The position numbers were made by a program, and so were the translations under genes. A DNA stretch of 64,000 bases from Pelobacter seleniigenes DSM 18267 (GTDB lineage Bacteria; Desulfobacterota; Desulfuromonadia; Desulfuromonadales; Geopsychrobacteraceae): the NCBI RefSeq assembly GCF_000711225.1, contig NZ_JOMG01000002.1, positions 694,501 to 758,500 of the forward strand, in the 5' to 3' direction. Below are positions 22,997 to 59,011 of the stretch, piece after piece. The notes beneath the pieces are model-generated. The model made no database searches, was not told the origin of the DNA, and saw only the letters and a program-made list of their open reading frames with translations. The stretch's first letter is position 1. Every line of letters starts with the position of its first letter.

Positions 22997-23062
22997 CTGT
23001 CTCAAGGAGACCCTGTGGGCTTTCCGCCCCACCCTTGCGAGTGGTTTAGTATTGTCGTCTAT
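22986..23062 (-). ncRNA. GEMM-I (cyclic dinucleotide) riboswitch aptamer, second in tandem
   Basis: Minus-strand RNA with the GEMM-I core: GACAATACTAAACC, a P2 hairpin CCACTCGCAAGGGTGG capped by a GCAA tetraloop, GGGCGGAAAGCC, then a P3 stem and the terminal AGCCGGGTTGCCG. It differs from the upstream copy by only two bases in the core (CACAGGG versus CATAGGG, GAGACAGCC versus GAGATAGCC). Class members bind c-di-GMP or, in Geobacter-like variants with A at the base that contacts one guanine, 3',3'-cGAMP. The ACAAUACU segment suggests the latter but this is not certain. Confidence 0.88.
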
Positions 23063-23089: not shown

Positions 23090-23136
23090 AAAAAACCGGG
23101 TCACCGCATATCAAAGTCGATATTTCGGCAACCCGG
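23090..23136 (-). terminator. Expression-platform terminator of the upstream GEMM-I riboswitch
   Basis: CCGGGTTGCCG pairs with CGGTGACCCGG over 11 positions including G-T wobbles, with an inner ATATC/GATAT extension, followed by TTTTTTATT on the minus strand. It shares its 5' arm with the aptamer's closing sequence, as for an antitermination-type ON switch. Confidence 0.78.
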
Positions 23137-23202
23137 CTATCTCAAGGAGACCCTATGGGCTTTCCGCCCCACCCTTGCGAGTGGTTTAGTATTGTCGTCT
23201 AT
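23126..23202 (-). ncRNA. GEMM-I (cyclic dinucleotide) riboswitch aptamer, first in tandem
   Basis: Promoter-proximal copy with the same core as the one at 22986: ACAATACTAAACC, the P2 hairpin with GCAA tetraloop, GGGCGGAAAGCC, a P3 stem and AGCCGGGTTGCCG. It precedes its own terminator. The two aptamers plus terminators lie in one leader of about 400 bases ahead of the repeat cytochrome gene. Confidence 0.88.
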
Positions 23203-42700: not shown

Positions 42701-44134
42701 TTACTCGGTCAGTTCCTCACGGCTCAGATTAAGCCGCTCAAGATGCCGGTACAGGGTGGCTCGATGCACCCCCAGAATCCTGGCCGCCTCGGACAGGTTA
42801 CCGGCCGCGGCCTGAAAAGCCTGGCGAATATTCTCCTCGGTCAGCAGCGGGCGCTGCCCTCCCCCGACCGGGACATCATGACCGTTGTTCTGGGTATAGA
42901 TCGGAACCGCCTCGTGGTGGGTATAGGGGACAACCATGGGTAGATGACGCTGGGATGCCGGAGTCACCGACTCGGCCACGGCGCGGGAAAACTGCTGCCG
43001 CTCACGAATCCATTCGGTGAAAGCGCGGGCGCTGATCGCTTCAGTTTCAGTTTCGATCACCACCCGTTCAATGACATTGCGCAATTCACGCACATTACCG
43101 GGCCACAGGTACGACTGCAGCAGCCTGACCGCTTCGCTGGTCAGCCGCTTGGCGCCCTTGCCGTAATGGGCATTGAAACGGGCCAGAAACATCTCCGCCA
43201 GCAGCGGGATATCCTCGGGGCGTTCCCGCAACGGCGGCAGATGAATCCGCAATACCGCCAGCCGGTGATAGAGATCAGCCCGAAAACGTTTTTCGGCAAC
43301 AGCCTGTTCCAGCGGCACATTGGTCGCACCGATAAAGCGCACATCGACCTGCCGACTGCTCTCGCTACCGACGCGCTGGACCTTGCCGTCCTCCAGCACC
43401 CGCAACAATTTGCTCTGGGTCGCCATGGGCATATCGCCGATCTCATCGAGAAACAGGGTGCCCCCGTCGGCCCGTTCAAAATAGCCGCGATGATCGCGCA
43501 GCGCCCCGGTAAAAGCGCCCCGTTCATGGCCGAACAGCTCGGACTCGAGCAGCTGCTCGCTGATAGCCGTGCAGTTCAGCGCCGCAAAGGGTTTGTGATG
43601 GCGGGGACTCTCCTGGTGCAAAGCCTCGGCAACCAGTTCTTTGCCAGCGCCGGTCTCCCCGGTAATGATGACCGCCGCGTCCGAAGCCGCATACAGGCGG
43701 ATTTTACGAAACACTTCCCGCATCGCCGGGCTGACCCCGACCAGGTTACGAAACCCGGTTTCCTGCCTGCTTGCCAGGGTTTCCGTACGCAGGCTGATGC
43801 GAACCAAGCGGCCCAGGTAATCTTCGGTCAAACCGGCAAACTGGATATCGGCCAGGAATTCCGGCTGGTCCGGCCGAATCCGCAGCTTAATCCCGTCGAG
43901 ATCCCGGCCATGGGTCAGGACATCATCCACCAGTTCGGTTAATGCAGGGACCGCGTCAGGGAACATGGCATCCACTGCGCGGCCGCGAACTTCGAGCAGA
44001 TCGACCCCCAGCCAGCCGGCAAGGCGTTCGGACAGGCGATGAACCTGCCAGCCCCCGTGGCCCCAATACACCAGGATAATATCCGGGGCAACAGCGGGCA
44101 GATGTTTGGAATTGTGATCTTTAGAAATCGCCAT
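42701..44134 (-). CDS. Sigma-54-dependent transcriptional activator
   Basis: 477 residues. An N-terminal PAS-like sensor (about 1-125: DIILVYWGHGGWQVHRLSER, ADIQFAGLTEDYLGRLVRIS), the AAA+ domain with GETGAGKELVAEALH, the sigma-54 contact loop GAFTGA, FLDEIGDMP and WPGNVRELRNVIE, and a C-terminal Fis-type helix-turn-helix (AAGNLSEAARILGVHRATLY). No receiver domain, so it senses a ligand or signal directly. Targets are unknown; the neighbouring respiratory cluster is a candidate. Confidence 0.93.
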   Translation of the reverse strand: MAISKDHNSKHLPAVAPDIILVYWGHGGWQVHRLSERLAGWLGVDLLEVRGRAVDAMFPDAVPALTELVDDVLTHGRDLDGIKLRIRPDQPEFLADIQFAGLTEDYLGRLVRISLRTETLASRQETGFRNLVGVSPAMREVFRKIRLYAASDAAVIITGETGAGKELVAEALHQESPRHHKPFAALNCTAISEQLLESELFGHERGAFTGALRDHRGYFERADGGTLFLDEIGDMPMATQSKLLRVLEDGKVQRVGSESSRQVDVRFIGATNVPLEQAVAEKRFRADLYHRLAVLRIHLPPLRERPEDIPLLAEMFLARFNAHYGKGAKRLTSEAVRLLQSYLWPGNVRELRNVIERVVIETETEAISARAFTEWIRERQQFSRAVAESVTPASQRHLPMVVPYTHHEAVPIYTQNNGHDVPVGGGQRPLLTEENIRQAFQAAAGNLSEAARILGVHRATLYRHLERLNLSREELTE

Positions 44135-45344: not shown

Positions 45345-45493
45345 TCATCCGGAAACGGCCCTTTTCCGCCGTGGCGGTGTCAATCTGCGGGCTTATTTGT
45401 GCGGCGTAAAGAACTACGCCTCCGCATAAGCCCTTGATTTTCTTACCACAACGAAAAATTGCTCGTTTCCAATCTAAAAACGTATGCGTTGGC
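45345..45493 (-). repeat. 149-bp dispersed repeat, copy 2
   Basis: Reverse-orientation copy of 36301-36449 in the gap between convergent genes. Equal length and scattered substitutions only; the internal hairpins are conserved. Confidence 0.8.
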
Positions 45494-45517
45494 ATCCGGA
45501 GTTTCCGGATGCCAACG
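45487..45517 (-). terminator. Terminator of the cytochrome operon
   Basis: CGTTGGCATCCGGA pairs perfectly with TCCGGATGCCAACG around GTT, just after the tetraheme cytochrome stop. The minus strand continues CATACGTTTTTAG. One arm overlaps the 149-bp repeat copy 2. Confidence 0.8.
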
Positions 45518-45519
45518 AG

Positions 45520-46341
45520 CTATTCCGGCGGTATATGCTGCAACTCCGCACAGATCCGTTCGAACTCGTCCTGCTTCAATTCCAAGGGTGGCATTTGTGC
45601 AAACGGCCTGACCTTGCGGGGATTTTTCAACCACTTTTCCAGGTTCTCGACAGTCCAACGCTGCTGTTCGTCGCCAAAACTCTGCGGATAAAACTCAGAA
45701 AAAATCCCCGACAGGTTCGGGCCGATGAGGCCATGCCCCAAACCGCCGAACCGGGCGGTCAAAGCCCGATGGCACCCCCCGCAATGTTTTTCGAACTGGA
45801 ACTCGCGGGTCACCTCTGCCCCTTCAAAGTGCACCACGGTCGGCTGTTCCTGCTCCGGCGGGGGCACAGTCTGGCCCCCCTCTAGAATGGCATTGACCAG
45901 GGCGATACGTTGGCTTTCGTAAAAATGAAATTCAGGCATGAAGAGGACCGGATTGCGGATACTTTCTTCCAATTCCTCCGGGCGTCTGGTCTGCTGGGCC
46001 AGATCCAGATCGGCGGCCAGCAGGTTGCCCTGATTGCCGCTGCGATGACAACGCCTACAGGCATAGTCCTTGAGCAGTTGGCGACCACTGACCGCAAGCG
46101 GGTGTTCCGGTAGGGTAAAGGCGACATAGCGCGCCGCTAGCAACCCCTGATGAGCGATATTGAGCCGTTTGGTCCCGGCAAAGCCACGATGACAGTCGGT
46201 ACAGGAGCCGCGCTCCGGGTAATGAAGCGGATGACAATCAAGACAATGATTGACGGTTCCAGCCGTTTTGGGCAGGTCTGCCGCAGCCACGCCGACGCCA
46301 ACGACAACCATGAGCAACGGGATCAGAAGACGAAGGACCAA
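45520..46341 (-). CDS. Periplasmic tetraheme cytochrome c
   Basis: 273 residues with a signal peptide (MVLRLLIPLLMVVVGVGVAA) and four CXXCH motifs: CLDCH, CTDCH, CRRCH and CGGCH. The last lies in a cytochrome c-like domain with GLGHGLIGPNLSG and a Met in FAQMPPLEL, a likely distal ligand. The start is a TTG at 46341 preceded by CGGGGTGAAAA and overlapping the upstream cytochrome b gene. An internal ATG is possible but would shorten the signal peptide. It is the last gene of the Rieske/cytochrome b set and would take electrons from it. Confidence 0.88.
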   Translation of the reverse strand: MVLRLLIPLLMVVVGVGVAAADLPKTAGTVNHCLDCHPLHYPERGSCTDCHRGFAGTKRLNIAHQGLLAARYVAFTLPEHPLAVSGRQLLKDYACRRCHRSGNQGNLLAADLDLAQQTRRPEELEESIRNPVLFMPEFHFYESQRIALVNAILEGGQTVPPPEQEQPTVVHFEGAEVTREFQFEKHCGGCHRALTARFGGLGHGLIGPNLSGIFSEFYPQSFGDEQQRWTVENLEKWLKNPRKVRPFAQMPPLELKQDEFERICAELQHIPPE

Positions 46342-46730
46342 TTTTCACCCCGAAAAAACATGGCAATGATTGTCAACAGGACAATCCCCACAAAACTCAA
46401 CACAGTGAGTAGATTGATGAGGCGCTGATCTCGGGCAAACCAGCGGGCCCGCTCAGCCGGCCTGCTGCAGGGCAACCAGGGCAGCACCAGAAAGAACAGC
46501 CCCAGGGACAGGATCAGGTAGACCAGCAGGCTGGAATAGCTGACCAGCTCCTGGGTCCACATCAGAAACCAGGCCGATTTGGACGGATTGGGCACCCGGC
46601 TGATATCCGCCGGACCCTGCAGCGGAGCCGGGATAAAAATCGCCAGCACCAGCAGCACCAACGCCAGCACGACAAAGGCGATCTTGATGATGCGGAAAAA
46701 GTGGGGAGAGGATTTGACATAATCACTCAT
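46323..46730 (-). CDS. Cytochrome b C-terminal part (subunit IV-like)
   Basis: 135 residues, three hydrophobic helices: IIKIAFVVLALVLLVLAIFI, SLLVYLILSLGLFFLVLPWL and LLTVLSFVGIVLLTIIAMFF. The segment PADISRVPNPSKSAWFLMW includes a PxPxxxxxxWF region characteristic of subunit IV and bc1 C-terminal domains near the quinol site (the PEWY-like loop is not conserved here). Start ATG at 46730 overlaps the cytochrome b stop (ATGA). With the gene upstream it makes a split cytochrome b, as in b6f and related complexes. Confidence 0.83.
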   Translation of the reverse strand: MSDYVKSSPHFFRIIKIAFVVLALVLLVLAIFIPAPLQGPADISRVPNPSKSAWFLMWTQELVSYSSLLVYLILSLGLFFLVLPWLPCSRPAERARWFARDQRLINLLTVLSFVGIVLLTIIAMFFRGENWSFVF

Positions 46731-47365
46731 AAGTACGGCAACACCCCCTTGTCCTTGCGAATGCGATAAAAATGCAGGCTGCAGAGAATCAACATACACA
46801 GCGGAAGCACCGCGATATGCAGAACATAAAAGCGCACCAGTGACAGCGGCTGACCAATATCGTCCGGCACCAGAAAATTACGCAGAAACTCACCGAAGGG
46901 CAAGGTTGCGAGCAGGTTCATCCCGGTCTGGGTGGCCCAGAGCGCCAACTGGTCCAGCGGCAGCAGATAACCGGTATAGCCTTCGAACAGGGCCAGGCAA
47001 AGCAGGCCGAAGCCGATTACCCAGTTGAGCTCGCGGGGCTTGCGAAAGGCCCCCGTCAGCAACACCCGCAGCGTATGCAGAAAGATCAGGACCAGGAAAA
47101 AGTTGGCGGCCAGCCGGTGCAGATTGCGGATGTACCAGCCGCCCGGAACCTGGTTCTCGATATAGAGGATCGACTCAAAAGCCCCTTCGGCAGAGGGCTG
47201 ATAATGAAAGATCAGCAGCGCCCCGGTCAGAATCAGCAGCAAAAAAGCGGTAAAGGCCAGCCCACCCAGGCAGAAGGTATAGGTCAGCTTCAGGTTCCGG
47301 CGCAGCACCACGCGCGGAAACAGGTGTTTGATGAACTCTTTGACGAAATCGTCATCCTTTTTCAT
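46727..47365 (-). CDS. Cytochrome b N-terminal part (b6-like)
   Basis: 212 residues with four membrane helices. Two histidine pairs for two b hemes: LHRLAANFFLVLIFLH (13 residues between) and LHIAVLPLCMLILCSLH (14 residues between). The 13/14 spacing is that of cytochrome b6. It oxidises quinol in the inner membrane, passing one electron to the Rieske protein. The start overlaps the Rieske stop by 4 bases. Gene order Rieske - b6-like - subunit IV-like is co-directional with the multiheme cytochromes. Confidence 0.9.
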   Translation of the reverse strand: MKKDDDFVKEFIKHLFPRVVLRRNLKLTYTFCLGGLAFTAFLLLILTGALLIFHYQPSAEGAFESILYIENQVPGGWYIRNLHRLAANFFLVLIFLHTLRVLLTGAFRKPRELNWVIGFGLLCLALFEGYTGYLLPLDQLALWATQTGMNLLATLPFGEFLRNFLVPDDIGQPLSLVRFYVLHIAVLPLCMLILCSLHFYRIRKDKGVLPYL

Positions 47366-47754
47366 ATCAGAACCACCAGTTTGTTGCCGCGCTCTTCAAC
47401 AGTCAGTCGGGGCAGCGGGCGCTCCGCCGGCCCTTTGAGGACGTTTCCGGCACGATCGAACACACTGCCGTGGCAGGGACAGATCAGATTTTCAGCGGTC
47501 ACATTGACGGTACAGCCCAGATGGGTGCAGACCAAGCTCAGCGCGTAGACATCATCTTCGCCACGGATCACCGCCACCCGTGACCGTTTGAAGACCAGCG
47601 CCCCGCGCAGCGGAATCGCATTTTTCTGCACTTCCAGCAGTGTTTGCCGGCGCACTTTCCGACCCGGCACCAGAAAACGCCACAGCGCTCCCAGCCCCCC
47701 GAGCAGAGCTATTCCGGTGAGGAATCTGCGCCGCGACCGAGCAATTTTTGCCAT
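47362..47754 (-). CDS. Rieske iron-sulfur protein
   Basis: 130 residues. N-terminal Tat-like sequence RSRRRFLTG with a hydrophobic anchor, then the cluster-binding motifs CTHLGC and CPCHGS that hold a [2Fe-2S] cluster with two Cys and two His. It collects electrons from quinol at cytochrome b and hands them to a c-type heme. The start lies inside the end of the nine-heme gene (46-base overlap). It ends with a 4-base overlap with the b6-like gene. Confidence 0.94.
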   Translation of the reverse strand: MAKIARSRRRFLTGIALLGGLGALWRFLVPGRKVRRQTLLEVQKNAIPLRGALVFKRSRVAVIRGEDDVYALSLVCTHLGCTVNVTAENLICPCHGSVFDRAGNVLKGPAERPLPRLTVEERGNKLVVLI

Positions 47755-48950
47755 CGTTCCACATAGGCCCTGGTATAGGGGCCATCCTTTTTATTGAGCT
47801 CTGAAAACTGTTGCGGGCTGATAAAAGACCCGTTACTGACCTGCTGCCCCTGCTGATTCCAAAACGAGGGCAAAGTCATTCCGTCAAGATCGATACGATA
47901 AACCCGGTCATCTTCAGATTCCAGCAGATAACGCCGCCGGTCGTCATGACAGCTGTCGCACATGACGCTGCCACGACGAACAGTATGGGGGAAAAACGCT
48001 TTCCATTGCGCACTCAGCAGGCGGTTCTCCACCCCGCTGGAATCCTCGCGCAGATCGGAATAATAGGCGATAAACTCCGGTCGGATCGGGCTGACCCGGC
48101 CACGCGCATTGAGGCCGAGCGGCGGAGCATCCTGCTTGCGTAAATAGACCCGGGTCAGGTAATCGCCCACCGGCGGCTCAGCCACATGAAACTGTTCAAT
48201 CTTGTCCTCGTTATCCTTGCCGATGCGCAGATAAAAGGTCCCGTATTCCTGCGCCGCCCAGGCGGAATGACAGGCATAGCATTCCAGCTTTTCCAGATGG
48301 GCGGCGATGCCGTGCTCAATCACCTGCGGATCCGGCTGATGACAGTCCCGGCAGCTTTGCGCGCTCTTGTGTCCGGCAATCAGGCTGGCCATGGTATGGC
48401 AGTCCTGACATTGCAGGCCGGCTTCGGCATGCAGGTCGGGGCGCATTTTGAGATAGTGTTCCCCCAGCAACTCCGGACCACGCTGATAGCGGGGATGGTC
48501 TTCACGGGGTGCTTTGCCGAGATATTCCGGGCCCACAAAATAGCCTTTATGGCAGGACAGGCACTGTTGCTGGGTCGCGGCACCGATTTTGTGGCCATCC
48601 CCGCCATGGCAATCCAGACAGTCGGAAACATGACAACTGGTGCAGTTATTGGCAAAAAAGTTGTCATCCAGTCCGTGAAAGGCGGTGTTGGCAAAGTGCT
48701 TTTCAGCCCCCCGCACGGTCATGGCCTGGTCAAAAATCTGCCCATAGCCCTGATGGCAACCGGTACAGCCCGCGGCTCTGGTGGCCAGAGAGGATGGCTG
48801 CGCCAAGCGCTCCGAGCCGGAACTGTGGCAGGCAGCACAGGCCAGTTCGGCATGCACGCCGGCCAACTTGACCTGGGCTGCGAAAACCGGCACGCCCCCA
48901 CTCAGCTCAAGGCTGAACAGCAGCACGCTTAAGACAACTGTCCAACGCAT
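47709..48950 (-). CDS. Nine-heme c-type cytochrome
   Basis: 413 residues starting MRWTVVLSVLLFSLELSGGV, a signal peptide cleaved near VFAA. Nine CXXCH motifs: CAACH, CTGCH, CTSCH, CLDCH, CLSCH, CQDCH, CRDCH, CYACH, CDSCH, all before residue about 340. The distal part is heme-free. The ATG at 48950 has AAGGA upstream and lies inside the end of the 12-heme gene (44-base overlap). It could link the Rieske/b complex to the 12-heme lipoprotein or the Mo enzyme. Confidence 0.9.
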   Translation of the reverse strand: MRWTVVLSVLLFSLELSGGVPVFAAQVKLAGVHAELACAACHSSGSERLAQPSSLATRAAGCTGCHQGYGQIFDQAMTVRGAEKHFANTAFHGLDDNFFANNCTSCHVSDCLDCHGGDGHKIGAATQQQCLSCHKGYFVGPEYLGKAPREDHPRYQRGPELLGEHYLKMRPDLHAEAGLQCQDCHTMASLIAGHKSAQSCRDCHQPDPQVIEHGIAAHLEKLECYACHSAWAAQEYGTFYLRIGKDNEDKIEQFHVAEPPVGDYLTRVYLRKQDAPPLGLNARGRVSPIRPEFIAYYSDLREDSSGVENRLLSAQWKAFFPHTVRRGSVMCDSCHDDRRRYLLESEDDRVYRIDLDGMTLPSFWNQQGQQVSNGSFISPQQFSELNKKDGPYTRAYVERWQKLLGRGADSSPE

Positions 48951-50748
48951 CGTAATCCAGTTCCTTCTGATAAATTGGATCTTTGGAGTCATTGTGGCAG
49001 ACCAGGCACAGGTTGACCGCGAGAATTTTGTTCACTTCCCGGGTATTAAACGGCCGCGAACCCTCCCGGGTAATGGCGGAAAAAGCCTTGACCTGACCTG
49101 CGTTCATGGTGACATAGCCATCGAGCGGTTTTTCAGCCGATTTTTCACAGAGCATAGTCGCTTCGATACTATCGGCGCTGACCACGTGCTGACCAAAGCC
49201 GAGGAACGCCGGATTGGCATGACATTCGGCGCAACCGATGGCCCGGGTTCCGGTATTGTGGCCGAAAAATGGGGCAAAGCGCAATTGCTGGCGGCCGTTG
49301 TAAAGGGCGACGTATTCATCCAGCGGCTTGTTCCCCTGCTGGTCGATCACCGTCACAAAGGTCTGACAGCCGGGGGTGACCGTGGACACCTTGCCACGTT
49401 GATTGAGGGCCAGGGGAAAAGGATAGAGCATCCGATAATCTTCGGTTTCACTGAACTGGCCCGGGGTTTTCACCCCCTTGATAAAATCGGTCCCGAGTTC
49501 GCGCTGATCATATTGGGTGTGGCAGCCGTAGCATTGCGCGACGCTCCGGGAATGACAGGCATAGCACTCCATCCGTTCGTGACCGACGATGGTGTGTTCC
49601 GGGGTCCCGGTGATCACCTTGCTTTCCCGCAGCTTGCCATCCCGCTTGCCCTGCAGCCAGACCTTACCGTCGGCCACAAAAACATTGGAATATTTGCGCC
49701 CTTTGCCGGTCAGGACCATCTCATCCCCCTGCTTCATGGGGTGCTGATAATGGGCCGATTCGCGCAGGACCTCGTCGTTTTCACGGCTGATCGGTTCGCT
49801 CCGCGGCCGCTGCCGGGCTGACCCGTGGCAATCTTCGCAGGCGATCTCGGTCTGCAGGTACATATTTTCGTAGGCATAGCCGTCCCCCATGACATCGCGC
49901 GAGGTGTGGCAATCGATGCACTCAAGCCCCTTTTCATGGTGAATATCGGCTTGAATCCTGGTCACATTTCGAGCCCCGCCGATAATCTTCGGCCCCGGAT
50001 CGCCCGCGGCGGTCGGAACCAGGCCGTTGTTTCCGTCGTTCCACCCCTGGTAGGACAGGGCGATCCGGCCGCTGCGATTATGGCAGCGCACACAGACCTG
50101 GTTGTCCGGCAGCACGGCCATTTCGTGACTGGCCGAATGGGGCCACTTCCCCTTGACCGTGGCATCGTTCCCCTGGTAGGTGGCATTGTCGTTATAGGGG
50201 AAATGGCAGGCCGCACAGCCGGAGGCGTGACTGCCGCTCCATACCCGGTTCATATCGATGCCAACATGGCAGACCGCGCAAAATTTCCGGTACAGTTCGC
50301 CGGACAGGTTATCCAGTTCGGCAACATTCGCCAAGTCCCGCGGCAGCCCGGCCGCGTCATGCACCGCTTCACCGCGGGTTGCATAGAGTGTTCCGTCCTC
50401 ACCTTCCCAGGTTTTCTGGATATTTTTGATCATGCCGGTGTTGGTGTACATCAGGTTGCCCCGAACCCGCTCCAACTGGTAGGGATGACAGCTGCCGCAG
50501 GTTTTCTCCCAGTGGGCGGGATCAGCAGGATTTTTCGGCCCGAACATGGTCCGATGGGAGGCTTTTTCTTCTCGGGCCGCGGGGTCGCCGCCATGACAGG
50601 AAACACATTCCAGATGCGACGCGGAGGCCAGTTCCAGCCCCTGATGACATTGGGCACAGGTCGAACCGTCGCCGGCGGGGCCGCGACAACCGGCAAAAAG
50701 CAGGCCGAGGACAGCCCACAACAGATATATCAGTCCCGCTGGTCTCAT
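48907..50748 (-). CDS. Twelve-heme c-type cytochrome lipoprotein
   Basis: 613 residues. MRPAGLIYLLWAVLGLLFAG is a signal with lipobox LFAGC, so the protein should be membrane-tethered. Twelve CXXCH motifs: CAQCH, CVSCH, CGSCH, CAVCH, CAACH, CVRCH, CIDCH, CEDCH, CYACH, CYGCH, CAECH, CLVCH. The CIDCHTSRDVMGDGYAYENM segment resembles the octaheme/decaheme respiratory cytochromes. No good ribosome-binding site is visible; an alternative TTG start lies 33 bases upstream. A terminator about 150 bases upstream separates it from the Fe-S subunit. Confidence 0.9.
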   Translation of the reverse strand: MRPAGLIYLLWAVLGLLFAGCRGPAGDGSTCAQCHQGLELASASHLECVSCHGGDPAAREEKASHRTMFGPKNPADPAHWEKTCGSCHPYQLERVRGNLMYTNTGMIKNIQKTWEGEDGTLYATRGEAVHDAAGLPRDLANVAELDNLSGELYRKFCAVCHVGIDMNRVWSGSHASGCAACHFPYNDNATYQGNDATVKGKWPHSASHEMAVLPDNQVCVRCHNRSGRIALSYQGWNDGNNGLVPTAAGDPGPKIIGGARNVTRIQADIHHEKGLECIDCHTSRDVMGDGYAYENMYLQTEIACEDCHGSARQRPRSEPISRENDEVLRESAHYQHPMKQGDEMVLTGKGRKYSNVFVADGKVWLQGKRDGKLRESKVITGTPEHTIVGHERMECYACHSRSVAQCYGCHTQYDQRELGTDFIKGVKTPGQFSETEDYRMLYPFPLALNQRGKVSTVTPGCQTFVTVIDQQGNKPLDEYVALYNGRQQLRFAPFFGHNTGTRAIGCAECHANPAFLGFGQHVVSADSIEATMLCEKSAEKPLDGYVTMNAGQVKAFSAITREGSRPFNTREVNKILAVNLCLVCHNDSKDPIYQKELDYDALDSCLKRAAVQP

Positions 50749-50903
50749 GACTACGATCGGTATCTCACATGCTGCTGGCAAGCGATAAAATCCGGGATGA
50801 AGTTCAATACAAGGGGCAGGATCCAGCGCAGTCTAGCACGGATCGACTCCACGAAAAACACTCCACCACAGTGATCGGACTTTTTTCTGGCTGGAACAGG
50901 ACA

Positions 50904-50936
50904 AAGAAAAACCGCTCACCGTGACCAGCGAGCGGT
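50904..50936 (-). terminator. Terminator between the Fe-S subunit and the cytochrome genes
   Basis: ACCGCTC and GAGCGGT pair and are followed on the minus strand by TTTTTCTTTG. It divides the Mo-enzyme genes from the cytochrome/bc genes, unless read through. Confidence 0.75.
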
Positions 50937-50960
50937 TCATGGCCGGAAAGCCCATCCGGA

Positions 50961-51776
50961 CTATTCAGTCCGATCAGAATCCTGCTCTTTTGACTTCATC
51001 CATAACGCGGCCATCCCCAACAGCCCCATGCCCTGCAGATGCCGGGAGGTCTTTTTGGACAGATGGGCCATGAGCAGGCGGCGCTGATTGATCTGGGCCA
51101 GTTCCTGCGGGGTCGAGGTTTTATCCAGCAGGTAGAGGTCGCGCTCCTTGCCAAAATAGCGCACATTGGGGCCAAGTTTGACCGCTGCTGATTCCAAACG
51201 AACCGCGCCTTTTTTGATATAGGCCGACACCGCGGAATCCGGATCACTCACATCGCCGAAGATCCGGGCTCCGGCCAGACAAGTTTGCACACAGGCCGGC
51301 TCCCCGCCCAGGGCAATCCGCTCGACACAGAACGTGCACTTGTCCGCTTTCGGCTCATCACCATCTTCATTCATATACCGGGCCGTATAGGGGCAGGCTT
51401 CGGCGCAAGCACCGCAGCCAATACAACGCTCCTTGTCGATCTGGACGCTGCCGTCAAAGGGATCTTTCCAGGTCGCAGCCACGTCCATGGTCTTGGTCGT
51501 ACCGTCTTTACCGGTAAAAGTCTTGCTGACCGTGTCAGCCGGGCAAACCTCGACGCAGGACGGCTTGTCGCAGTGATTACACAGGCCCGGGTAATAAGTG
51601 TAGGCCAGCCCCTTCGGGGTTTTTGTCGGCCCGAGGCGCTCAACCCAGCTGCGCCGGCGGACCCGGTTTTCCGAATCTTTGCCGACCGGGACATTCCATT
51701 CCGCCCGACAGGCAACCGAACAGGCATGACAACCGACGCATCTGTTCAGATCTATGATCATTCCATATTGGCTCAC
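50961..51776 (-). CDS. Four-cluster [4Fe-4S] subunit (PsrB/DmsB type)
   Basis: 271 residues with the four Cys-rich motifs of DmsB/PsrB/NrfC proteins: CVGCHACSVAC at residues 13-23, CNHCDKPSCVEVCP, CIGCGACAEACP and CTFCVERIALGGEPACVQTC. It carries electrons between the molybdopterin subunit and a redox partner. No signal peptide; it would be co-exported with the Tat-bearing catalytic subunit. The extended C-terminal tail (after about 205, IKKGAVRLESAAVKLGPNVR...) ends in a hydrophobic helix-like LLGMAALWM followed by a charged end, unusual for PsrB and possibly a contact for a cytochrome. Confidence 0.92.
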   Translation of the reverse strand: MSQYGMIIDLNRCVGCHACSVACRAEWNVPVGKDSENRVRRRSWVERLGPTKTPKGLAYTYYPGLCNHCDKPSCVEVCPADTVSKTFTGKDGTTKTMDVAATWKDPFDGSVQIDKERCIGCGACAEACPYTARYMNEDGDEPKADKCTFCVERIALGGEPACVQTCLAGARIFGDVSDPDSAVSAYIKKGAVRLESAAVKLGPNVRYFGKERDLYLLDKTSTPQELAQINQRRLLMAHLSKKTSRHLQGMGLLGMAALWMKSKEQDSDRTE

Positions 51777-51838
51777 GAGTTTCCTCCATCTGGTCTGAAA
51801 AACGAATCCAACCTATCCTCCCTGCGAAAATAATCGGC

Positions 51839-54085
51839 TCAGGCGGGGATGGACAGTTCCTTGCCGTCTTTGATAAAGCGGACAAAGTTGTTCCGCATGC
51901 CGTGGGTGCCGGTCTCGGGATCGATGGACGGATTGCTGATCAGGCTCTGATCATCCACCCCGGCTCCAACCCCGACCGTCAGCGCCGGATTCATGGAGCC
52001 ATAGCCATGGGCCATGTAGACCGTATCGGAGCGGATCCCCGGAGTGACCTTGACCACGGTCGCAGTCCGCGATTTCACCCCTTGGTCATTGACCAGTTCC
52101 ACCATGTCCCCGTCTTTCAGTCCCATTTTTTTGGCGCTCTGCTCGTTCAGCCAAACCGGGTTGAGAGTCGATTCCTGGTGCAGCCAGACATTGTTCTGGG
52201 TCCGATTGAAGGTGTGCACCGGCAGCCGCCCGTAAACCAGACGAGCATAACCGGCAGGCGGTTGCGGAACTTCGGTATAGGTCGGCACCGGAGGATAGCC
52301 GGCCTCTTCAAGGGCTTCGCTGTAAAAGACCACGTCCAGTTCGACATCATAGGGATCTTCCCCTTCCTGGAGATGGATGCCGTCTTCGGCGCGCAGCTGC
52401 TTGAGGGACAACGTCGGCTTGGCTCCGGCCAGCATGATATCGACCATCTCCTCGGCGGATTTGGCCTTGATGTGTTCACCGTAACCCATCCGTTTGGCCA
52501 GCTCGTTGGTGATCCAGACCGAATCCTTGCGCTCGTGATCCTTGGTTTCAGGAGCGACCAGCGGCATGCGGGCGGCGATATACTGCTGATGTTCTTCGGC
52601 AAAATCCCACTGGGTGCCACGCTTGATGTAATCGTAGCGCTCCAGATAGGAGACCTCGGGCAACAGGATATCCGCATACATGGTGATATCGGTCGGCATC
52701 ACGTCACAGACCAGGACAAAATCCATCTGCTCCAGCATGGCAATGGTCTGGGCCTGATTCGGCACCGTCTGGATCGGATTCTGGCCCCAGGTCACCATGG
52801 CTTTGATCGGATAAGGTTGGCCGGTCAAGGCCGCGTTACGGATCAGATCGGTCGGGGTTCCGGGTGGTGAAAACTTGTGGACTTTTGCCAACCGCCGCAA
52901 GGAATATTCTTCGGCATGTTCTTTCATCGGTGTGGGCCAGCTGAACCGGCCGAGCTTAGGCCCGATGGGGCGGACAAAACCGCCGACTGAACCGATGGCG
53001 CCAAGCATTCCGGTCAAGCAGGCCATGGCCCGCTCACGCTGGAAGTCGTTACCATACCAGCTGGTATGCCGGCCCGGGTGAATGGCGACATGCGGCATAT
53101 CGGCGGACAGCATATCGGCAACCTGCTTGATCTGTGCCTCGGGCACATCACAAATTTTGGCCGCCCAGCTCAGGCTGGCGTGGGCGATCCCTTCACAGAA
53201 ATCATCGAACCCGTCGCCATTGTCATCCACATACTCGACATTGTATTTTTCGTTTTCGGCCAGGTAATTCATGATCGCGAGCAGGAAAGCGGTGTCGGTG
53301 CCCGGTTTGATCTTGACCCAGACATCAGCTTTGGCAGCGGCGGCCGAGAAACGGGGATCAACCACGATCAGCTTGGCACCGTTTTCCAACCCTTTCAGAT
53401 AACGCTTCAAATGAGAGACATGGACATTTTCCCCCAGGTGGCTGCCGAGCAGGAAAATCACCTTGGCGTTGGGCATGTCCACCTCTTCCCCGGCCGGTAC
53501 GCCCAGGGTGGCCAGGTAAGCCAGGTCGCGCGCGCCACGGCATTGGAAGAAGGAGGCTTCGGAATTGTTCGGTGTACCGACGACATGCTCAAAAAAGTGC
53601 ATCGGATAAACAGCCGAAGAACCATGGGGAAAAATGGTTATCCCCTGCGGGCCGTATTTATCAATGGTGGCTTTGAGCCGGGTCGCACACTCATCGAGGG
53701 CTTCGTCCCAGGAAATCCGTTTCCACTTCGGAGCACCCCGCTTGCCGATGTTCTTCAGTGGATACTTGAGGCGATCGGGATCGTAGAGCAGCTTGATCCC
53801 GGCATTGCCGCGGGCACACAGGCTCTTGCCGTTATCGATGCTTTTGGGATTCCCCTCCAGTTTGACCAGCTTGCCGTCCCGGACCTTGCCGATCACCTGA
53901 CAGCGCCAGAAACACATCTCGCAAATACCGCCGGTCACGGTCTGCGTTCCCGCCATGCTGCCGGGAGAAACATACGGGTATTTCACAAAAGAATCGTCCG
54001 CTTGGACCAGATTGGCAAACGGAAGTACGGCTGCGGCGCAGCCGGTCGATTGCAAAAATCTGCGGCGGGTCATCTTAACTGCCAT
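51839..54085 (-). CDS. Tat-exported molybdopterin oxidoreductase, PsrA/PhsA/TtrA-like
   Basis: 748-residue catalytic subunit with a Tat signal MTRRRFLQSTG. Binds one [4Fe-4S] via Cys55, Cys58, Cys62 and Cys90 (C-X2-C-X3-C-X27-C), then a bis-MGD Mo or W site. Cys182 in FFQCRGARDLA is the likely metal ligand, as in polysulfide, thiosulfate and arsenate reductases; the Ser/Cys/SeCys alternatives of DMSO reductase and formate dehydrogenase do not fit. Other motifs: GSHLGENVHVSH, VVDPRFSAAAA, PGTDTAFLLA, CDVMPTDITMYADILLPEVS. Substrate is unassigned. ATG follows GAGGAAGAGGATC and overlaps the TorD-like gene. The membrane NrfD/PsrC anchor is absent. Confidence 0.92.
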   Translation of the reverse strand: MAVKMTRRRFLQSTGCAAAVLPFANLVQADDSFVKYPYVSPGSMAGTQTVTGGICEMCFWRCQVIGKVRDGKLVKLEGNPKSIDNGKSLCARGNAGIKLLYDPDRLKYPLKNIGKRGAPKWKRISWDEALDECATRLKATIDKYGPQGITIFPHGSSAVYPMHFFEHVVGTPNNSEASFFQCRGARDLAYLATLGVPAGEEVDMPNAKVIFLLGSHLGENVHVSHLKRYLKGLENGAKLIVVDPRFSAAAAKADVWVKIKPGTDTAFLLAIMNYLAENEKYNVEYVDDNGDGFDDFCEGIAHASLSWAAKICDVPEAQIKQVADMLSADMPHVAIHPGRHTSWYGNDFQRERAMACLTGMLGAIGSVGGFVRPIGPKLGRFSWPTPMKEHAEEYSLRRLAKVHKFSPPGTPTDLIRNAALTGQPYPIKAMVTWGQNPIQTVPNQAQTIAMLEQMDFVLVCDVMPTDITMYADILLPEVSYLERYDYIKRGTQWDFAEEHQQYIAARMPLVAPETKDHERKDSVWITNELAKRMGYGEHIKAKSAEEMVDIMLAGAKPTLSLKQLRAEDGIHLQEGEDPYDVELDVVFYSEALEEAGYPPVPTYTEVPQPPAGYARLVYGRLPVHTFNRTQNNVWLHQESTLNPVWLNEQSAKKMGLKDGDMVELVNDQGVKSRTATVVKVTPGIRSDTVYMAHGYGSMNPALTVGVGAGVDDQSLISNPSIDPETGTHGMRNNFVRFIKDGKELSIPA

Positions 54086-54671
54086 GATCCTCTTCCTCCT
54101 CGGTAAAAAAGTCGATCAACGAAACCAGGACCACATAGTAGGGGTGCCTGCTTTCACGACTGACACGCTGATAAAAACTGCCAAACCACGGCCGAAAACA
54201 CTGCCGGAGAAAAAGCTCCGCCGCCGCTTCCCTCCCCTGCTCCAACAGCAGGGCAACAAAACGCAATTCATTCCCCAGATAATCGGGAATATCATGACTG
54301 CCCCGCAGCTCGAAATTCTCCTGCCGGTAAAACGCCTTGGCCCGCTCGGCACTGGCACCGTAGAGCATCCCGTCTCCGTCGAGATAAACCGAGCCGTACG
54401 GCGGAGCGATCACATGAGGAACGGCGTTGATAAACAGCCGGGTATACTCAACCTGGAGACCTTCAAACTGTTCCGGGGACGCCGGGTAAGAAGGGAACAT
54501 TGCCTCAGCAGAAATGCTGCCGATCTCGTGCAGGAGTCCTTCCAGAGCGGCCCAATATGCGGGCGTCAGCCAGGACCGCTGCGGATATTCCATGGCCGCG
54601 GCCAAAAAACACAAAATCTCCGCAAGCCTGGTGCAAGCGTTACCAACCGGTTTTTCCATCGCCATTGCCAT
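54075..54671 (-). CDS. TorD-family maturation chaperone
   Basis: 198-residue cytoplasmic chaperone that holds the Tat signal of molybdoenzymes until the cofactor is inserted. Motifs: EYTRLFINAVPHVIAPPYGS, VYLDGDGMLYGASAERAKAFYRQ and IPDYLGNELRFVALLLEQG, all hallmark TorD/DmsD signatures. It overlaps the catalytic subunit gene by 11 bases and precedes it. Either the first ATG or an in-frame one a few codons later may be used. It is followed upstream by a ~300-base gap. Confidence 0.92.
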   Translation of the reverse strand: MAMAMEKPVGNACTRLAEILCFLAAAMEYPQRSWLTPAYWAALEGLLHEIGSISAEAMFPSYPASPEQFEGLQVEYTRLFINAVPHVIAPPYGSVYLDGDGMLYGASAERAKAFYRQENFELRGSHDIPDYLGNELRFVALLLEQGREAAAELFLRQCFRPWFGSFYQRVSRESRHPYYVVLVSLIDFFTEEEEDHGS

Positions 54672-54978
54672 TATCCGACCACATTTTTCAACAGGGGTTC
54701 ATTCCGGCGGTCAAGTTCCGTTCCACCTGAGCCCCTCCTGACAGGTTATCGAAGAAGTCCGGCCGGGGACTTGTTCGAGCATGAGCAGAAAAAATCAACC
54801 GCTGCCGGCCTCACCACCTCACCCCCACGAACAGCCATCGGTTTTACTTCCCGGCTTTAGACCACCAAGCAATCGGCCATCAACTGACAGCCTTGCCTGG
54901 ACCAATGGCAGCCAACTGCGCCGGCCCGGTCGCCTGGATAGCTGCAGCGACCGGGTATCCGTTCCGGCAGGTCGAAAA
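54672..54978. other. Intergenic region with a hairpin
   Basis: About 300 bases ahead of torD. A 9-bp stem CCCGGTCGC/GCGACCGGG (54925-54955) just after the small-protein gene could end its transcript but has no U-tract. A separate promoter for the torD-Mo unit is possible; I could not define one. Confidence 0.45.
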
Positions 54979-55209
54979 TCAGCAGCCTTGCAGTTTGGCA
55001 CCGCCACCTTTTTTCGGAGCGCCGTCTTTGGTTTCGATTTTGATTTTATCGCCGACAGCAAAATCCTCGGCCTTGCCTTTGGTGATCTTGATGGTAACCA
55101 TTTTGCCGTCAACAGCGGTCACTTTCCCTTTGTACTCCGCTGCAAAAATAAGCCCTGAAAAGCTCAACGTCAGCAGACATGCCAGCACCAGAACCAACAG
55201 TTTTTTCAT
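54979..55209 (-). CDS. Small secreted beta-rich protein with terminal Cys
   Basis: 76 residues. Signal peptide MKKLLVLVLACLLTLSFSGL to IFAA, then a short domain YKGKVTAVDGKMVTIKITKG, AVGDKIKIE and a basic glycine tail KKGGGAKLQGC ending in Cys. The fold looks like a small OB/KOW-type beta barrel. The ATG follows AAAGGAGATTGTTC. It lies between the porin and torD; a similar small gene occurs in the Geobacter ext-type clusters as I recall, function unknown. The ending GGGAKLQGC resembles the GGGC end of the neighbouring rhodanese lipoprotein. Confidence 0.72.
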   Translation of the reverse strand: MKKLLVLVLACLLTLSFSGLIFAAEYKGKVTAVDGKMVTIKITKGKAEDFAVGDKIKIETKDGAPKKGGGAKLQGC

Positions 55210-55234
55210 GAACAATCTCCTTTCGGTTGTTTCA

Positions 55235-55274
55235 CTGGGGTCACCGGCGCGGTTAACCGCACCGGCGACCCCAG
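55235..55274. terminator. Strong hairpin between the porin and small-protein genes
   Basis: CTGGGGTC and GACCCCAG arms with an inner CCGGCGCGGTTAACCGCACCGG. It lies in the transcript between porin and small protein and may stabilise or attenuate it; no U-tract follows on the minus strand. Confidence 0.6.
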
Positions 55275-55291
55275 CCAGCAAATGATGCAGG

Positions 55292-56461
55292 TTAGAAGAT
55301 GACCTGAACCTGGCCGACAATGGTTTCGAAATCCTCGACGGAGTCTTCCTTGTCGTAGTCGAGAGTCGAATACTCAACCGTCACTTTCAGATTCTGGCCG
55401 CGCAGGTAATAGTTGAAACCGAGCCCCATGATATCGACTTCCTGGTCATAGACATCATTCAGCTTGGCGAATGACCAACCTTCAGCACGGGCAAACAGTT
55501 GCAAGGGCAGGTTCGGCAGCATGTAGCCGACCTTAACGTAGCCGCCGTTCTTCTCGCCGTTGAGCCCGGTCACGTCAGTATCCGGAGTGCCATTTTTATA
55601 AGCATCGTCCATGTCATATTTGACATAGGCACCCGACAGGGTAAATGTCCCCACGTCTTCAATCGGGTATTCGGCAAACAGGTCAACGGTCCAGGCGCTG
55701 TAATCGACTTCTTTATTGCCGGCGTAGGCAACGGCGGCTTCGGTCTGATAAGCGGCCCCAATGGTCAGGACTTTCTTTTCACCCAGGTAGGTCCCGCGAT
55801 AGCCGTAACCATTTTCCGGATCCAGCAGGGTCACGTGAACACGGCCGGTGAAACGGGGATTGGACTCTGGAGAGGACGCCGAATCATTGCGGCCGTTCAT
55901 GACATCGAAGCGGTACTGGAATTTATCCTCAAACAGGTTGCCCCAGACGGCCACGCCCTTGTCCCGGGTGGAGACAAAAGGAGCGCGGATCATGATGGAG
56001 CGGTCCAGGGTCAGCGGCATTTCGCAGGCTTCCAGGTTTTCCCGGGTCAGGTTGTACTTGAATTTCCCCATCCACAGATTGAAGCTGTTGCTGAATTTGA
56101 AGCGCAGGACTGCGTCGAGCATTTCAAAATCGCCGTCGCTGCCATCCGACACACCGAGGGGCAGGATGTTGCGATCTTCCGAATATTCGGTCTGCACATA
56201 GAGACCGAAGTTATCACCCCAGGCACCCATCAGGGCGAGCCGGTTGCGGCGAAAGTTGAATTCGGTGGCATCGCCGTCGCCGTCAGGGCTGGCGCCGGTA
56301 TCGCGATGCAGCACCTGGAATTGACCTTTGTAGTCGAGTTTCAAAAGCCCCTCGTCATCAGGGCCGAAAGTCCAGATCGGGCCGGCCAAGGCACTACCGG
56401 CGATCATGCAGAATGCCGTTGCAACTGCACAAAGCAAACCTGCTTTCTTGAGCATAGTCAT
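55292..56461 (-). CDS. Outer-membrane porin (phosphate-selective porin O/P-like)
   Basis: 389 residues with signal peptide (MTMLKKAGLLCAVATAFCMI to GSALA). The mature part begins PIWTFGPDDEGLLKLDYKGQ and alternates short hydrophobic strands to the end in VGQVQVIF, a C-terminal Phe as outer-membrane beta-barrels need. Segments MGAWGDNFGLYVQTEYSEDR and DAVLRFKFSNSFNLWMGKFK are typical of OprO/P-like and ext-cluster porins. ATG follows AAAGGAGACTTTAAGT. Placed after the rhodanese gene it could bring the acceptor oxyanion into the periplasm (inference). Confidence 0.87.
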   Translation of the reverse strand: MTMLKKAGLLCAVATAFCMIAGSALAGPIWTFGPDDEGLLKLDYKGQFQVLHRDTGASPDGDGDATEFNFRRNRLALMGAWGDNFGLYVQTEYSEDRNILPLGVSDGSDGDFEMLDAVLRFKFSNSFNLWMGKFKYNLTRENLEACEMPLTLDRSIMIRAPFVSTRDKGVAVWGNLFEDKFQYRFDVMNGRNDSASSPESNPRFTGRVHVTLLDPENGYGYRGTYLGEKKVLTIGAAYQTEAAVAYAGNKEVDYSAWTVDLFAEYPIEDVGTFTLSGAYVKYDMDDAYKNGTPDTDVTGLNGEKNGGYVKVGYMLPNLPLQLFARAEGWSFAKLNDVYDQEVDIMGLGFNYYLRGQNLKVTVEYSTLDYDKEDSVEDFETIVGQVQVIF

Positions 56462-56487
56462 ACTTAAAGTCTCCTTTTTCAAAAGAG

Positions 56488-56515
56488 CTCCAGTGGTGCA
56501 GAAACACCACTGGAG
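56488..56515 (-). terminator. Hairpin with T-tract between rhodanese and porin genes
   Basis: CTCCAGTGGTG and CACCACTGGAG pair around six bases. On the minus strand CTCTTTTG follows. Likely a partial terminator that lowers porin relative to rhodanese expression. Confidence 0.72.
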
Positions 56516-56533
56516 ACAGTCATTGAATCAGAA

Positions 56534-59011
56534 CTAGCAGCCGCCACCCAGATCACCGGAACCGGAGGTCGGAGCACCACTGTCTGAACCGGAATCGGAC
56601 ACCGGAGTGGTCTGGTATTCATAGTCAGCATCTTCCACCTGGTTGGCCGTGGCCGGAGTCAGTGACAGGGCTGAACTATCGGCGTTCAACGGTTCGATCT
56701 GCTTCATCCGATCGGCATTGTAGTTGATGACGCTCATATAGGTTGTGGAGTCGGTTGCCCAAGCGGAGTAATCCACGGTCCCTGCAGCCAATTCCCCGCC
56801 TTTACTGGCGTCAGCAGACATTTTGCCCCACTGGCTCCAGGAACCGTCATAGGTCATGGCATCGACCCCGAGGATTCCATCCAGGACAAAGAAACCGACC
56901 GAAGCGATATAACCGGTCCGGCAATAGGAATAGATCGGATTGCTGTAGGATCCGTCCATAGAAGGCGTCGTTCCGCCCAAGGCCTGCAGCGCTGCTTCAA
57001 TCTCGGCAGCAGATTTGAAACGGAAATCACCATTGGCGTAATCGACATTGAAGTTCGTATAATTGAACGATGTTCCGCCTTGCAAGGTTCCTTCAAAGAC
57101 CACGTAATCCCCGGCCACATCACTGAACACGCCGGGCGTTGAGCCGATGGCGCTCTTGTCACCACGGAAATCAATGGCCATGCCGCGTCCATCGCGCACG
57201 GCATCCATCAGTTCAGCCAGCGACACGCGGGTATCGAGTTGGGCGCCGCTGCTCAGGTCGGCCACGCTCAGGGTCGATGCGGTGATGGTCGGAACCTCGG
57301 TGGTCAGTTCGGGTTGCGGCCAGGCAGCGTTATAGCCGTTCAGCACCTTGATACGCTCTTTGGGGAAACCCCAGTAACGGAACAGGAAATAAGCGCGACT
57401 GGGGTAATAGGTGGCAGTCGCCGAAGAGGTGATGACCACGGTGGTATTGGCGTCGATCCCGGCGGCCTGGATTCTGGCATCCATGCTGGCACCGTCCAGG
57501 ACCATATTGACGGCCGGAGCCGGACCTTCGGTACGGGTAATGGCCTGGCCGGTGATATTCCAGAGCTGGGCTCCAGGAATGTGGGCGGCGGCGTAGGCAT
57601 CGGCAGTCGTGACATCCAGGATGACAACCTTTTCACCGCTGGCAGCATTGACCAGGTCGCTGTTCATCCAGCCTTGCAGGGTCGCATAGTCGATCAGCAC
57701 CTCACTGGTTGCCGTCGCGGAGGGAGCGGCGATGGTGGTGGTCCCGCTACCGTCGGCGTAAGCACCGTCAGCAGCTTCGACCTGGCTCTGGACGACATCA
57801 CTGTCATCGGTGGGGACATCCCCGGTAAACGGACTGGGCTGAGGTTCAACCGCCGCAGCGATATTAAGGGTTTCGATGGTCAGTGGGCCGGGGTAGACAT
57901 TTTTGTTGTAGGTGTAGGTATCGCCATTCAGGTACATGTCGATGGCCCAGGGTGAGTTGACGGGCAATTCGCCACCGGCAGCTGAATTATTGGAATATTT
58001 GCCGAGCTGGCTCCAGGAACCGTCATACAGCTGCACATCGGCATCCAGAATGGCATCAAGGGCAAAGAACAACGGGGTGGCCGAGTAACCGCTGGTGCAG
58101 TACACGGTTGCTTTTTTCGAGGCATCCCAGCCTTTGGCAGCGAACAGAGCTTCGATCTCGGCAGCGGTCTTGAATTTACCGGAGCTGAACATCTCACCCT
58201 GGCTCAGATACTGGCCGCCTTCCGGATGGCCGTCGACCACGACGACGTCGCCGCCCAACAAGCCTGAGGTTGCGTTGTTGCCGAGATAATAAGTGGAGCC
58301 GCGGGCGTCAAAGACGATATTCGTAGTTGAGTTAGGTAAGGTTTTGATAATTTCAATAATTTCGCCGACCGAGGCACGGAGGTCATCATTGAGCCCGGCC
58401 AGGTTCCGTACACTATAGGTCGAAGGAGTGGGACTCGGAACATTTTCGTTCATCAGGTTGGGGTATGCGGCGGCAAAAGCGTTGTTCCCGCCGTTCAGAA
58501 GCTTCAGGCGGGATTTCGGGAAGCCCCAGTAACGGAAAGTCCAGTAAGCCCGGGTCGCCATGTACGGGCTGCCATCTGTGGTAAACACGATGGTGGTGTT
58601 TTCATCGATCCCCAGGCGCTGAATGACGGCATCCATCATCGCCCCGGTGGCTACCAGCGGAGCAGCGTCAGCCACGCCTTCAAAGCGGGTCAGAGTCAGG
58701 TCGGCACCTTCTACCCGGCAGGCACCGTCGATACGCTCGGCACCAGTGGAGCGGAAGTCGAGGACGACAACTTTTTCACCATACCCGGTCTCATTTCCGA
58801 CCAGCCCGGCATCCATCCAGGACTTGAGTGTGGCAGGTTCAATCAGCACATTGGTTGCAGCTCCACCGACAGCGGCATTGTCGGTTTCTGTGGGGGTGTC
58901 ATAGCTGCTTCCTCCCCCGCCGCCACAGCCCCAGACAAGCAACGTGGCAGAGATTACGAGCAGAAACAACGCGCCCATTCTCAGAGAGCTTCGTTTGATC
59001 CTTCCTGACAT
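56534..59011 (-). CDS. Four-module rhodanese-like lipoprotein
   Basis: 825 residues. Lipobox VWGC (Cys29) followed by Gly-Gly-Gly-Gly. Two homologous halves (about 50-360 and 435-760), each a tandem rhodanese with an inactive first module (Thr/Ser at the active position: TTDGSPYMATRAYW, TSSATATYYPSRAYF) and an active second module with CTSGYSATP (Cys305) and CRTGYIASV (Cys697). The protein ends SGSGDLGGGC. It would transfer sulfane sulfur or bind chalcogen oxyanions in the envelope. The ATG follows AAAGGAGGTCAT. First gene of the unit, with a candidate promoter at 59159. Homologous arrangement with a porin recalls Geobacter extH-extI. Confidence 0.88.
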   Translation of the reverse strand: MSGRIKRSSLRMGALFLLVISATLLVWGCGGGGGSSYDTPTETDNAAVGGAATNVLIEPATLKSWMDAGLVGNETGYGEKVVVLDFRSTGAERIDGACRVEGADLTLTRFEGVADAAPLVATGAMMDAVIQRLGIDENTTIVFTTDGSPYMATRAYWTFRYWGFPKSRLKLLNGGNNAFAAAYPNLMNENVPSPTPSTYSVRNLAGLNDDLRASVGEIIEIIKTLPNSTTNIVFDARGSTYYLGNNATSGLLGGDVVVVDGHPEGGQYLSQGEMFSSGKFKTAAEIEALFAAKGWDASKKATVYCTSGYSATPLFFALDAILDADVQLYDGSWSQLGKYSNNSAAGGELPVNSPWAIDMYLNGDTYTYNKNVYPGPLTIETLNIAAAVEPQPSPFTGDVPTDDSDVVQSQVEAADGAYADGSGTTTIAAPSATATSEVLIDYATLQGWMNSDLVNAASGEKVVILDVTTADAYAAAHIPGAQLWNITGQAITRTEGPAPAVNMVLDGASMDARIQAAGIDANTTVVITSSATATYYPSRAYFLFRYWGFPKERIKVLNGYNAAWPQPELTTEVPTITASTLSVADLSSGAQLDTRVSLAELMDAVRDGRGMAIDFRGDKSAIGSTPGVFSDVAGDYVVFEGTLQGGTSFNYTNFNVDYANGDFRFKSAAEIEAALQALGGTTPSMDGSYSNPIYSYCRTGYIASVGFFVLDGILGVDAMTYDGSWSQWGKMSADASKGGELAAGTVDYSAWATDSTTYMSVINYNADRMKQIEPLNADSSALSLTPATANQVEDADYEYQTTPVSDSGSDSGAPTSGSGDLGGGC

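Follow-up and report, generated by a model that had tools for sequence, protein, structure and literature searches.

The ext cluster of Geobacter sulfurreducens has been characterized through mutants: an extI mutant is impaired in the reduction of both selenite and tellurite, ExtKL was named as a candidate selenoprotein for these reductions, and the terminal reductase of the system has so far only been proposed (main text of PMC5877670). The MOLY cluster of Desulfobacterota (MolyA, MolyB and MolyC) is separated from its membrane-anchored relatives and is a candidate for sulfur disproportionation (main text of PMC12998232). Phs/PsrAB enzymes lacking the NrfD membrane subunit also appear in the main texts of PMC13047784 and PMC9751629, and PsrA is grouped together with the selenite reductase SrrA in that of PMC10100899. 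Here we describe an ext-type operon of Pelobacter seleniigenes DSM 18267 (contig NZ_JOMG01000002.1; the stretch of 64,000 nucleotides analysed is called the window, and all coordinates are window positions). In it, genes for a TorD-type chaperone (torD), a molybdoenzyme catalytic subunit (Mo) and an iron-sulfur subunit (FeS) occupy the position which ExtKL, a selenocysteine pentaheme cytochrome, has in close relatives. We consider it an evenly balanced proposition that this is an ext-type periplasmic respiratory pathway whose ExtKL module was replaced by an NrfD-less molybdoenzyme and which reduces selenium, tellurium or sulfur species.

The operon occupies positions 59011 to 45520 of the minus strand, in the order extH, extI, extJ, torD, Mo, FeS, extM, extN, extO, extP, extQ and extS. 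Nine of its 12 genes are members of the Geobacter extHIJKLMNOPQS cluster as judged by NCBIfam and Pfam profile matches: extH, I, J, M, N, P, Q and S are matched and form a single cluster together with the Rieske protein ExtO. A preliminary description of this DNA, made from its letters, had placed the genes it named on one strand and had recognized an ext locus, correctly in both cases; it mentioned neither the small gene extJ nor that ExtKL takes the place of torD-Mo-FeS in close relatives. The features are the following:

56534 to 59011, minus strand: extH, rhodanese-like lipoprotein of double length (NF040901, 591 bits, two stretches of the ExtH model)
55292 to 56482, minus strand: extI, outer-membrane porin (NF040900, 679.5 bits, cut-off 150)
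54979 to 55209, minus strand: extJ, small exported protein (NF040942, 81 bits, cut-off 52.5; start taken as the first ATG of frame 54979-55212)
54075 to 54671, minus strand: torD, TorD/DmsD-type chaperone, MolyC-like (PF02613, 71 bits)
51839 to 54085, minus strand: Mo catalytic subunit, group A, MolyA/PsrA-like, with a Tat-type signal (PF00384, PF01568, PF04879)
50961 to 51776, minus strand: FeS subunit, ferredoxin-type, MolyB-like, 16 Cys and a C-terminal extension
50909 to 50938, minus strand: putative terminator-like hairpin in the FeS/extM gap, 13-pair stem followed by a T-rich tail
48907 to 50781, minus strand: extM, 12-heme cytochrome, likely lipoprotein (NF040943, 1122 bits; likely start near 50748)
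47709 to 48992, minus strand: extN, nine-heme cytochrome (NF040967, 703 bits; likely start near 48950)
47362 to 47754, minus strand: extO, Rieske protein (PF00355, 47.8 bits)
46727 to 47365, minus strand: extP, N-terminal half of cytochrome b (PF00033, 138.6 bits; NF040969, 235 bits, below its cut-off of 290)
46323 to 46730, minus strand: extQ, membrane subunit, likely the C-terminal half of the b subunit (NF040970, 225.6 bits; the open frame reaches 46799)
45520 to 46341, minus strand: extS, four-heme cytochrome (NF040971, 400.8 bits; four CXXCH)
45487 to 45517, minus strand: terminator-like hairpin downstream of extS, 14-pair stem

The rhodanese lipoprotein and the porin of the preliminary description are both present as ExtH and ExtI, with the correction that the rhodanese protein has double length. 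Its active-site-type loops carry Cys305 and Cys697, and Cys29 lies near the start, where the lipobox was assigned by eye. The c-heme motifs (CXXCH) number 12 in ExtM, nine in ExtN and four in ExtS, which gives the 25 c-hemes claimed earlier; one further CXXCH in the FeS subunit is taken as a cluster motif and not as a heme site. The ExtP matches stay under the NF040969 cut-off in all 11 genomes checked, not just in that of the window. The nine-heme cytochrome at 47709-48992 is also matched, with 704 bits and on a par with the ExtN model, by NF040968, an NCBIfam model named iron-sulfur subunit ExtO. This model does not match the Rieske protein at 47362-47754, and its name is apparently misassigned.

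Among seven ext loci of the same family, ExtKL lies between extJ and extM in five, a molybdoenzyme set is found there in one (L090), and one is cut by a contig end. In the window genome no ExtKL match was obtained at 1e-20, between extJ and extM or elsewhere. A remnant was also sought in the window and none was found, the best tblastn match having an E value of 0.013. In all 17 loci checked, the ExtKL frame ends at TGA and has an in-frame continuation with a conserved start (PTPNR...), a read-through pattern which agrees with the published prediction of selenocysteine; in one of the 17, L083, the continued frame stops again after 38 residues. Since SelB is present over cut-off in the window genome, lost selenocysteine decoding is an unlikely reason for the absence of ExtKL. 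In a tree of ExtO, ExtP and ExtQ, four rows of the same family, all from ExtKL-bearing genomes, form the sister group of the window (100/98), and further ExtKL-bearing rows lie outside this clade. As the window is nested among ExtKL-bearing rows, the operon looks vertically inherited and the module exchanged: torD-Mo-FeS looks to have replaced ExtKL rather than to have been added. The preliminary description, which saw the three genes as added to an ext locus, was thus right on their cassette character and wrong on the addition. A recent foreign import could not be argued from base composition, which is uninformative here, the GC content of torD, Mo and FeS being similar to that of the ext genes on either side.

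The best NCBIfam match of the Mo subunit is PhsA (NF012032), at 417 bits and under the cut-off of 694, and among solved structures PsrA of Thermus is the closest in sequence (2vpw, 505 bits; ArrA, 145). With the ArrA model NF041714 the score is 134.5 bits for a cut-off of 1600. An arsenate reductase was dropped on this score and on PsrA being the nearest structure, so that the arsenic oxyanion listed earlier among the substrates is unlikely. Cys182 of the Mo subunit aligns with a PsrA cysteine, which we take to be the molybdenum ligand, and is invariant in alignments of 11 and 19 rows. The predicted structure of the subunit had a mean pLDDT of 62 and was not used. Membrane anchoring through the C-terminal extension of the FeS subunit was rejected as not general, the hydrophobic tail being absent in two of 15 aligned rows.

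With a Mo A subunit, an FeS B subunit and a TorD/DmsD chaperone, and without an anchor, the window unit fits the published MOLY description, a match made on gene content and not on the orthologous group OG1. The related Mo loci considered here are the best 80 of 258, several of them shortened by contig ends. Within 7 kb of the Mo unit, 76 of these 80 have the chaperone, 79 the FeS subunit and none an NrfD match. Most of them bear Desulfobulbales names or unspecific labels of metagenome-assembled genomes (MAGs), and group A is present in Desulfobulbus elongatus (L161) and Desulforhopalus singaporensis (L195), both included in the strain table of PMC12998232. Because the window unit fits MOLY and the related loci are without NrfD, the absence of this subunit is the norm of the family. 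The preliminary description had correctly found no NrfD among the 12 operon genes; its view that this is unusual does not hold, NrfD-less Phs/PsrAB and MOLY being already published.

The search for NrfD elsewhere in the genome, which it had proposed, yielded four genes, all outside the operon, unlike a PsrABC/PhsABC arrangement with NrfD within it. One of them might serve the window enzyme in trans. Each, however, adjoins an FeS-type gene of its own, and a molybdoenzyme-family gene lies beside three (L001, L004, L002 through L010), with no molybdoenzyme-family match beside that at L003. Together with the lack of NrfD near the related loci, this makes a supply in trans very improbable.

In the reading we prefer, quinol would be oxidized at a Rieske-cytochrome b complex of ExtO, ExtP and ExtQ, and ExtS, ExtN and ExtM would relay the electrons to the FeS subunit and then to the Mo site. 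The latter would reduce a chalcogen compound in the periplasm, our first guess being selenite or tellurite and our second a sulfur species. The porin ExtI may pass substrate or product, and the rhodanese lipoprotein ExtH may handle zero-valent chalcogen. Gene content, the position of the cassette in the slot, the lack of an ExtKL match in the genome and the linkage of this Mo unit to ext genes elsewhere are observed; the order and direction of electron flow, the substrate, the localization and the energy coupling are what we infer. A route from quinol via Rieske/b and cytochromes to the Mo enzyme had already been suggested in the preliminary description and is supported as a hypothesis, the same Mo unit adjoining extO-P-Q-S in three further genomes. 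The Rieske protein and split cytochrome b are present as claimed (PF00355, ExtP and ExtQ matches) and share two features with bc1/b6f complexes: the four heme-b-type histidines of ExtP (His 83, 97, 183 and 198) are invariant in all 44 aligned rows, and the Rieske centre of ExtO shows CxCHGS in 44/44 and CTHLGC in 41/44.

The three further genomes belong to genus g46 (L105, L106 and L107). There extO-P-Q-S comes directly after the window-type Mo unit, and extM and extN are missing from the locus; the sole ExtP match of each genome is the one beside the Mo unit, and extM lies on another contig. In G141 the Mo unit comes after extI and extJ, with extP about 26 kb off on the same contig, while in G184 and others of its genus contig ends interrupt the view or extP sits with extN. 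The Mo tree does not decide for or against a single origin of this linkage, since it leaves the branching order of three lineages (the window, g46, and f6 together with Desulfuromusa) as a fork. Among 12 ExtI loci from outside the class, none has a group A unit; L325 has ExtKL with ext genes, and Mo genes of other kinds, with about 30% identity, occur in L328 and L331.

ExtM is found in 124 of the 277 genomes of the class. Of these 124, 60 have ExtKL, 49 an NrfD-bearing PsrABC-like set (MoB), 14 the window-type unit and seven none of the three. Only one genome has both ExtKL and the NrfD-bearing set, a near-complete mutual exclusion (raw Fisher 4e-19, which ignores relatedness). The count omits three ExtKL-like matches of 33-37% identity (G112, G243 and G251), of which G251, with ExtM and MoB, would raise the genomes with both to two. 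It also omits the MoB genomes without ExtM (G220, G127 and G256) and an NrfD-bearing group C (340-411 bits, 25 genomes, two also in MoB), and with at most three Mo candidates scored per genome some may have been missed. We also annotated 94 ext loci, a sample that is not random since some were chosen for a Mo gene near extM. The nearest module upstream of extM is ExtKL in 35 and the NrfD-bearing set in 25; extI is nearest, with neither module between, in 21 (seven of them carry a Mo gene of this kind at another place in the region annotated), no module is in reach in 12, and one is without a long ExtM. The distance from the NrfD-bearing set to extM is up to 550 bases in 11 of the 25, up to 1 kb in three and 1.5-3.9 kb in 11, and only two of these sets are also flanked by extI/extJ (L090 and L125), to which L124, with a cut-off extM, is added from outside the 25. 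In genus g30 (L217, L219 and L220), two consecutive extH-extI pairs lie upstream of extM and ExtKL is elsewhere in the genome.

Several observations weigh against the preferred reading. The full arrangement was seen in the window genome alone, and ext genes lie within 7 kb of the Mo unit in five of the 80 related loci, with none in the other 75. A terminator-like hairpin lies between FeS and extM and casts doubt on transcription as one unit. Such hairpins, with stems of 12-14 pairs, occur in the extH/extI gap, in the FeS/extM gap and 3' of extS, and the 22 hairpin matches of the region are near chance (shuffled mean 17.7, standard deviation 4.3). ExtKL and the window-type unit show no exclusion, being found together in five of the 124 ExtM genomes (Fisher p 0.40). 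About seven changes on the ExtM tree underlie the ExtKL/molybdoenzyme pattern, which is not significant after tree correction: in an independent-pairs test (93 rows, five pairs), the presence of any Mo ran against that of ExtKL in 3.1 pairs on average and along with it in 0.0, with p 0.125 or more. The quinol-site region of ExtQ reads PNPSKSAWF, with Ala in the Glu column in 44/44 rows and no P[EDPV]W[YF] motif in any of them. The quinol-oxidation site of bc1/b6f complexes has a PEWY-type Glu, and with Ala in its place a standard Q-cycle is not assured. Finally, the MOLY unit is linked in print to sulfur and not to selenium (main text of PMC12998232).

The hairpin, the 75 loci without ext neighbours and the lack of exclusion would also fit a view in which the Mo unit adjoins the ext genes but serves a separate pathway, the unit having been inserted between two transcription units; so would G124, which keeps ExtKL in its ext locus and has the Mo unit on a separate contig. 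We think this unlikely, as the window genome has no ExtKL match and the linkage recurs elsewhere, with the sole extP match beside the Mo unit. Moreover, hairpins border the slot in L081 (before ExtKL) and L090 (before Mo and after NrfD), whose occupants differ from that of the window, and in L107 (after FeS); in L082, by contrast, ExtKL has none at its borders on the coding strand. A sigma-54 promoter was considered and rejected, three patterns being found for 2.95 expected by chance.

The link to sulfur bears on an alternative with the same wiring, in which the substrate would be a sulfur species (elemental sulfur, polysulfide or thiosulfate), the rhodanese would handle sulfane sulfur and ext would here serve sulfur respiration. 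Its case is made by the MOLY gene content of the unit, by the Desulfobulbales or unspecific MAG labels of most related loci, and by PhsA and PsrA as the best family matches. However, the remaining operon genes come from a cluster tied to selenite and tellurite by mutant data (PMC5877670), and no DsrA over cut-off was found in the window genome nor in seven other unit-bearing genomes, which makes a disproportionation route of the sulfate-reduction type unlikely in these eight. We regard a sulfur substrate as possible, although on the unlikely side. The enzyme might also work oxidatively, electrons passing from a sulfur or selenium compound via the cytochromes to quinone or outward. The direction of a PsrA-type enzyme is unreadable from its sequence, and disproportionation, for which MOLY is discussed, requires an oxidative branch (PMC12998232). 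Nevertheless, the phenotype of the ext mutant is a loss of reduction, and ExtKL, whose place the unit holds, was named as a candidate for selenite reduction (PMC5877670), so that an oxidative direction seems improbable.

Beyond the reductive pathway that we prefer for the window, ext may have an exchangeable catalytic slot, in which ExtKL, the NrfD-bearing PsrABC-like set and the NrfD-less MOLY unit are interchangeable end modules of one chain that leads from Rieske/cytochrome b to the multiheme cytochromes, and MOLY-type enzymes are driven by a bc-type complex. This wider proposal can be advanced only tentatively; its probability is lowered because ExtKL and the MOLY unit do not exclude each other and because the NrfD-bearing set was seen with extI/J on one side and extM on the other in three loci only. 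If true, it would represent a new coupling of a PsrA-family molybdoenzyme to the quinol pool via a bc-type complex. Two poorly understood systems may in this way explain each other, MOLY/PhsAB-type enzymes without a membrane subunit, so far without a known electron partner, and ext, without an established terminal reductase: a MOLY unit in the place of ExtKL offers each system a candidate partner and opens both to testing. As the window host and seven other unit genomes have no DsrA over cut-off, care is also needed before MOLY genes are taken to indicate sulfur disproportionation along the sulfate-reduction route.

Other features of the window include a sigma-54-type regulator (42701-44134, minus strand), on the same strand and downstream of the ext operon. 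Two tandem c-di-GMP-I type riboswitches (22984-23060 and 23124-23200, minus strand) lie upstream of a cytochrome-like gene (22240-22953) with a weak CBB3 match slightly under cut-off, and an outer-membrane efflux protein with a SPOR domain (19951-22182) is also downstream of them. In Geobacter, switches of this type may respond to cGAMP.

The individual parts of this locus are already known. We found no publication joining a MOLY unit to ext genes or placing Mo enzymes in the ExtKL slot among open-access main texts, taken without supplements, and a MOLY unit in the ext slot appears undescribed in the open literature searched. The main text of PMC12998232 does not mention Geobacter, Desulfuromon- or Rieske, and "molybd" is absent from the main texts of PMC5877670 and PMC6148476.

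Compared with the extHIJKLMNOPQS cluster of G. sulfurreducens (GSU2940-2930), as given in the main text of PMC5877670, the window has extH, I, J, M, N, O, P, Q and S in the same order, with torD-Mo-FeS where ExtKL stands. Its ExtN has nine heme motifs in place of the 10 stated there, and its ExtH is of double length, unlike that of G. sulfurreducens and like those of several relatives (840-889 aa). With the MOLY cluster it shares a PsrA/PhsA-like Mo subunit, an FeS subunit, a TorD-type chaperone and the absence of an anchor; it differs in that the unit is embedded in an ext operon that also encodes Rieske/b and multiheme cytochromes, and in a host without a DsrA match. The PsrABC-like sets of other Desulfuromonadia (groups B1 and B2) also place a PsrA-family enzyme upstream of extM, but they carry NrfD and have about 38-42% identity to the window Mo subunit. 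Finally, the Srr system of Bacillus selenitireducens, said to have been described by Wells in 2019, reportedly resembles the window in that one operon encodes a PsrA-family enzyme together with a chaperone and rhodanese-domain proteins, and is said to differ from it by a membrane anchor, SrrC, and by having no cytochromes.

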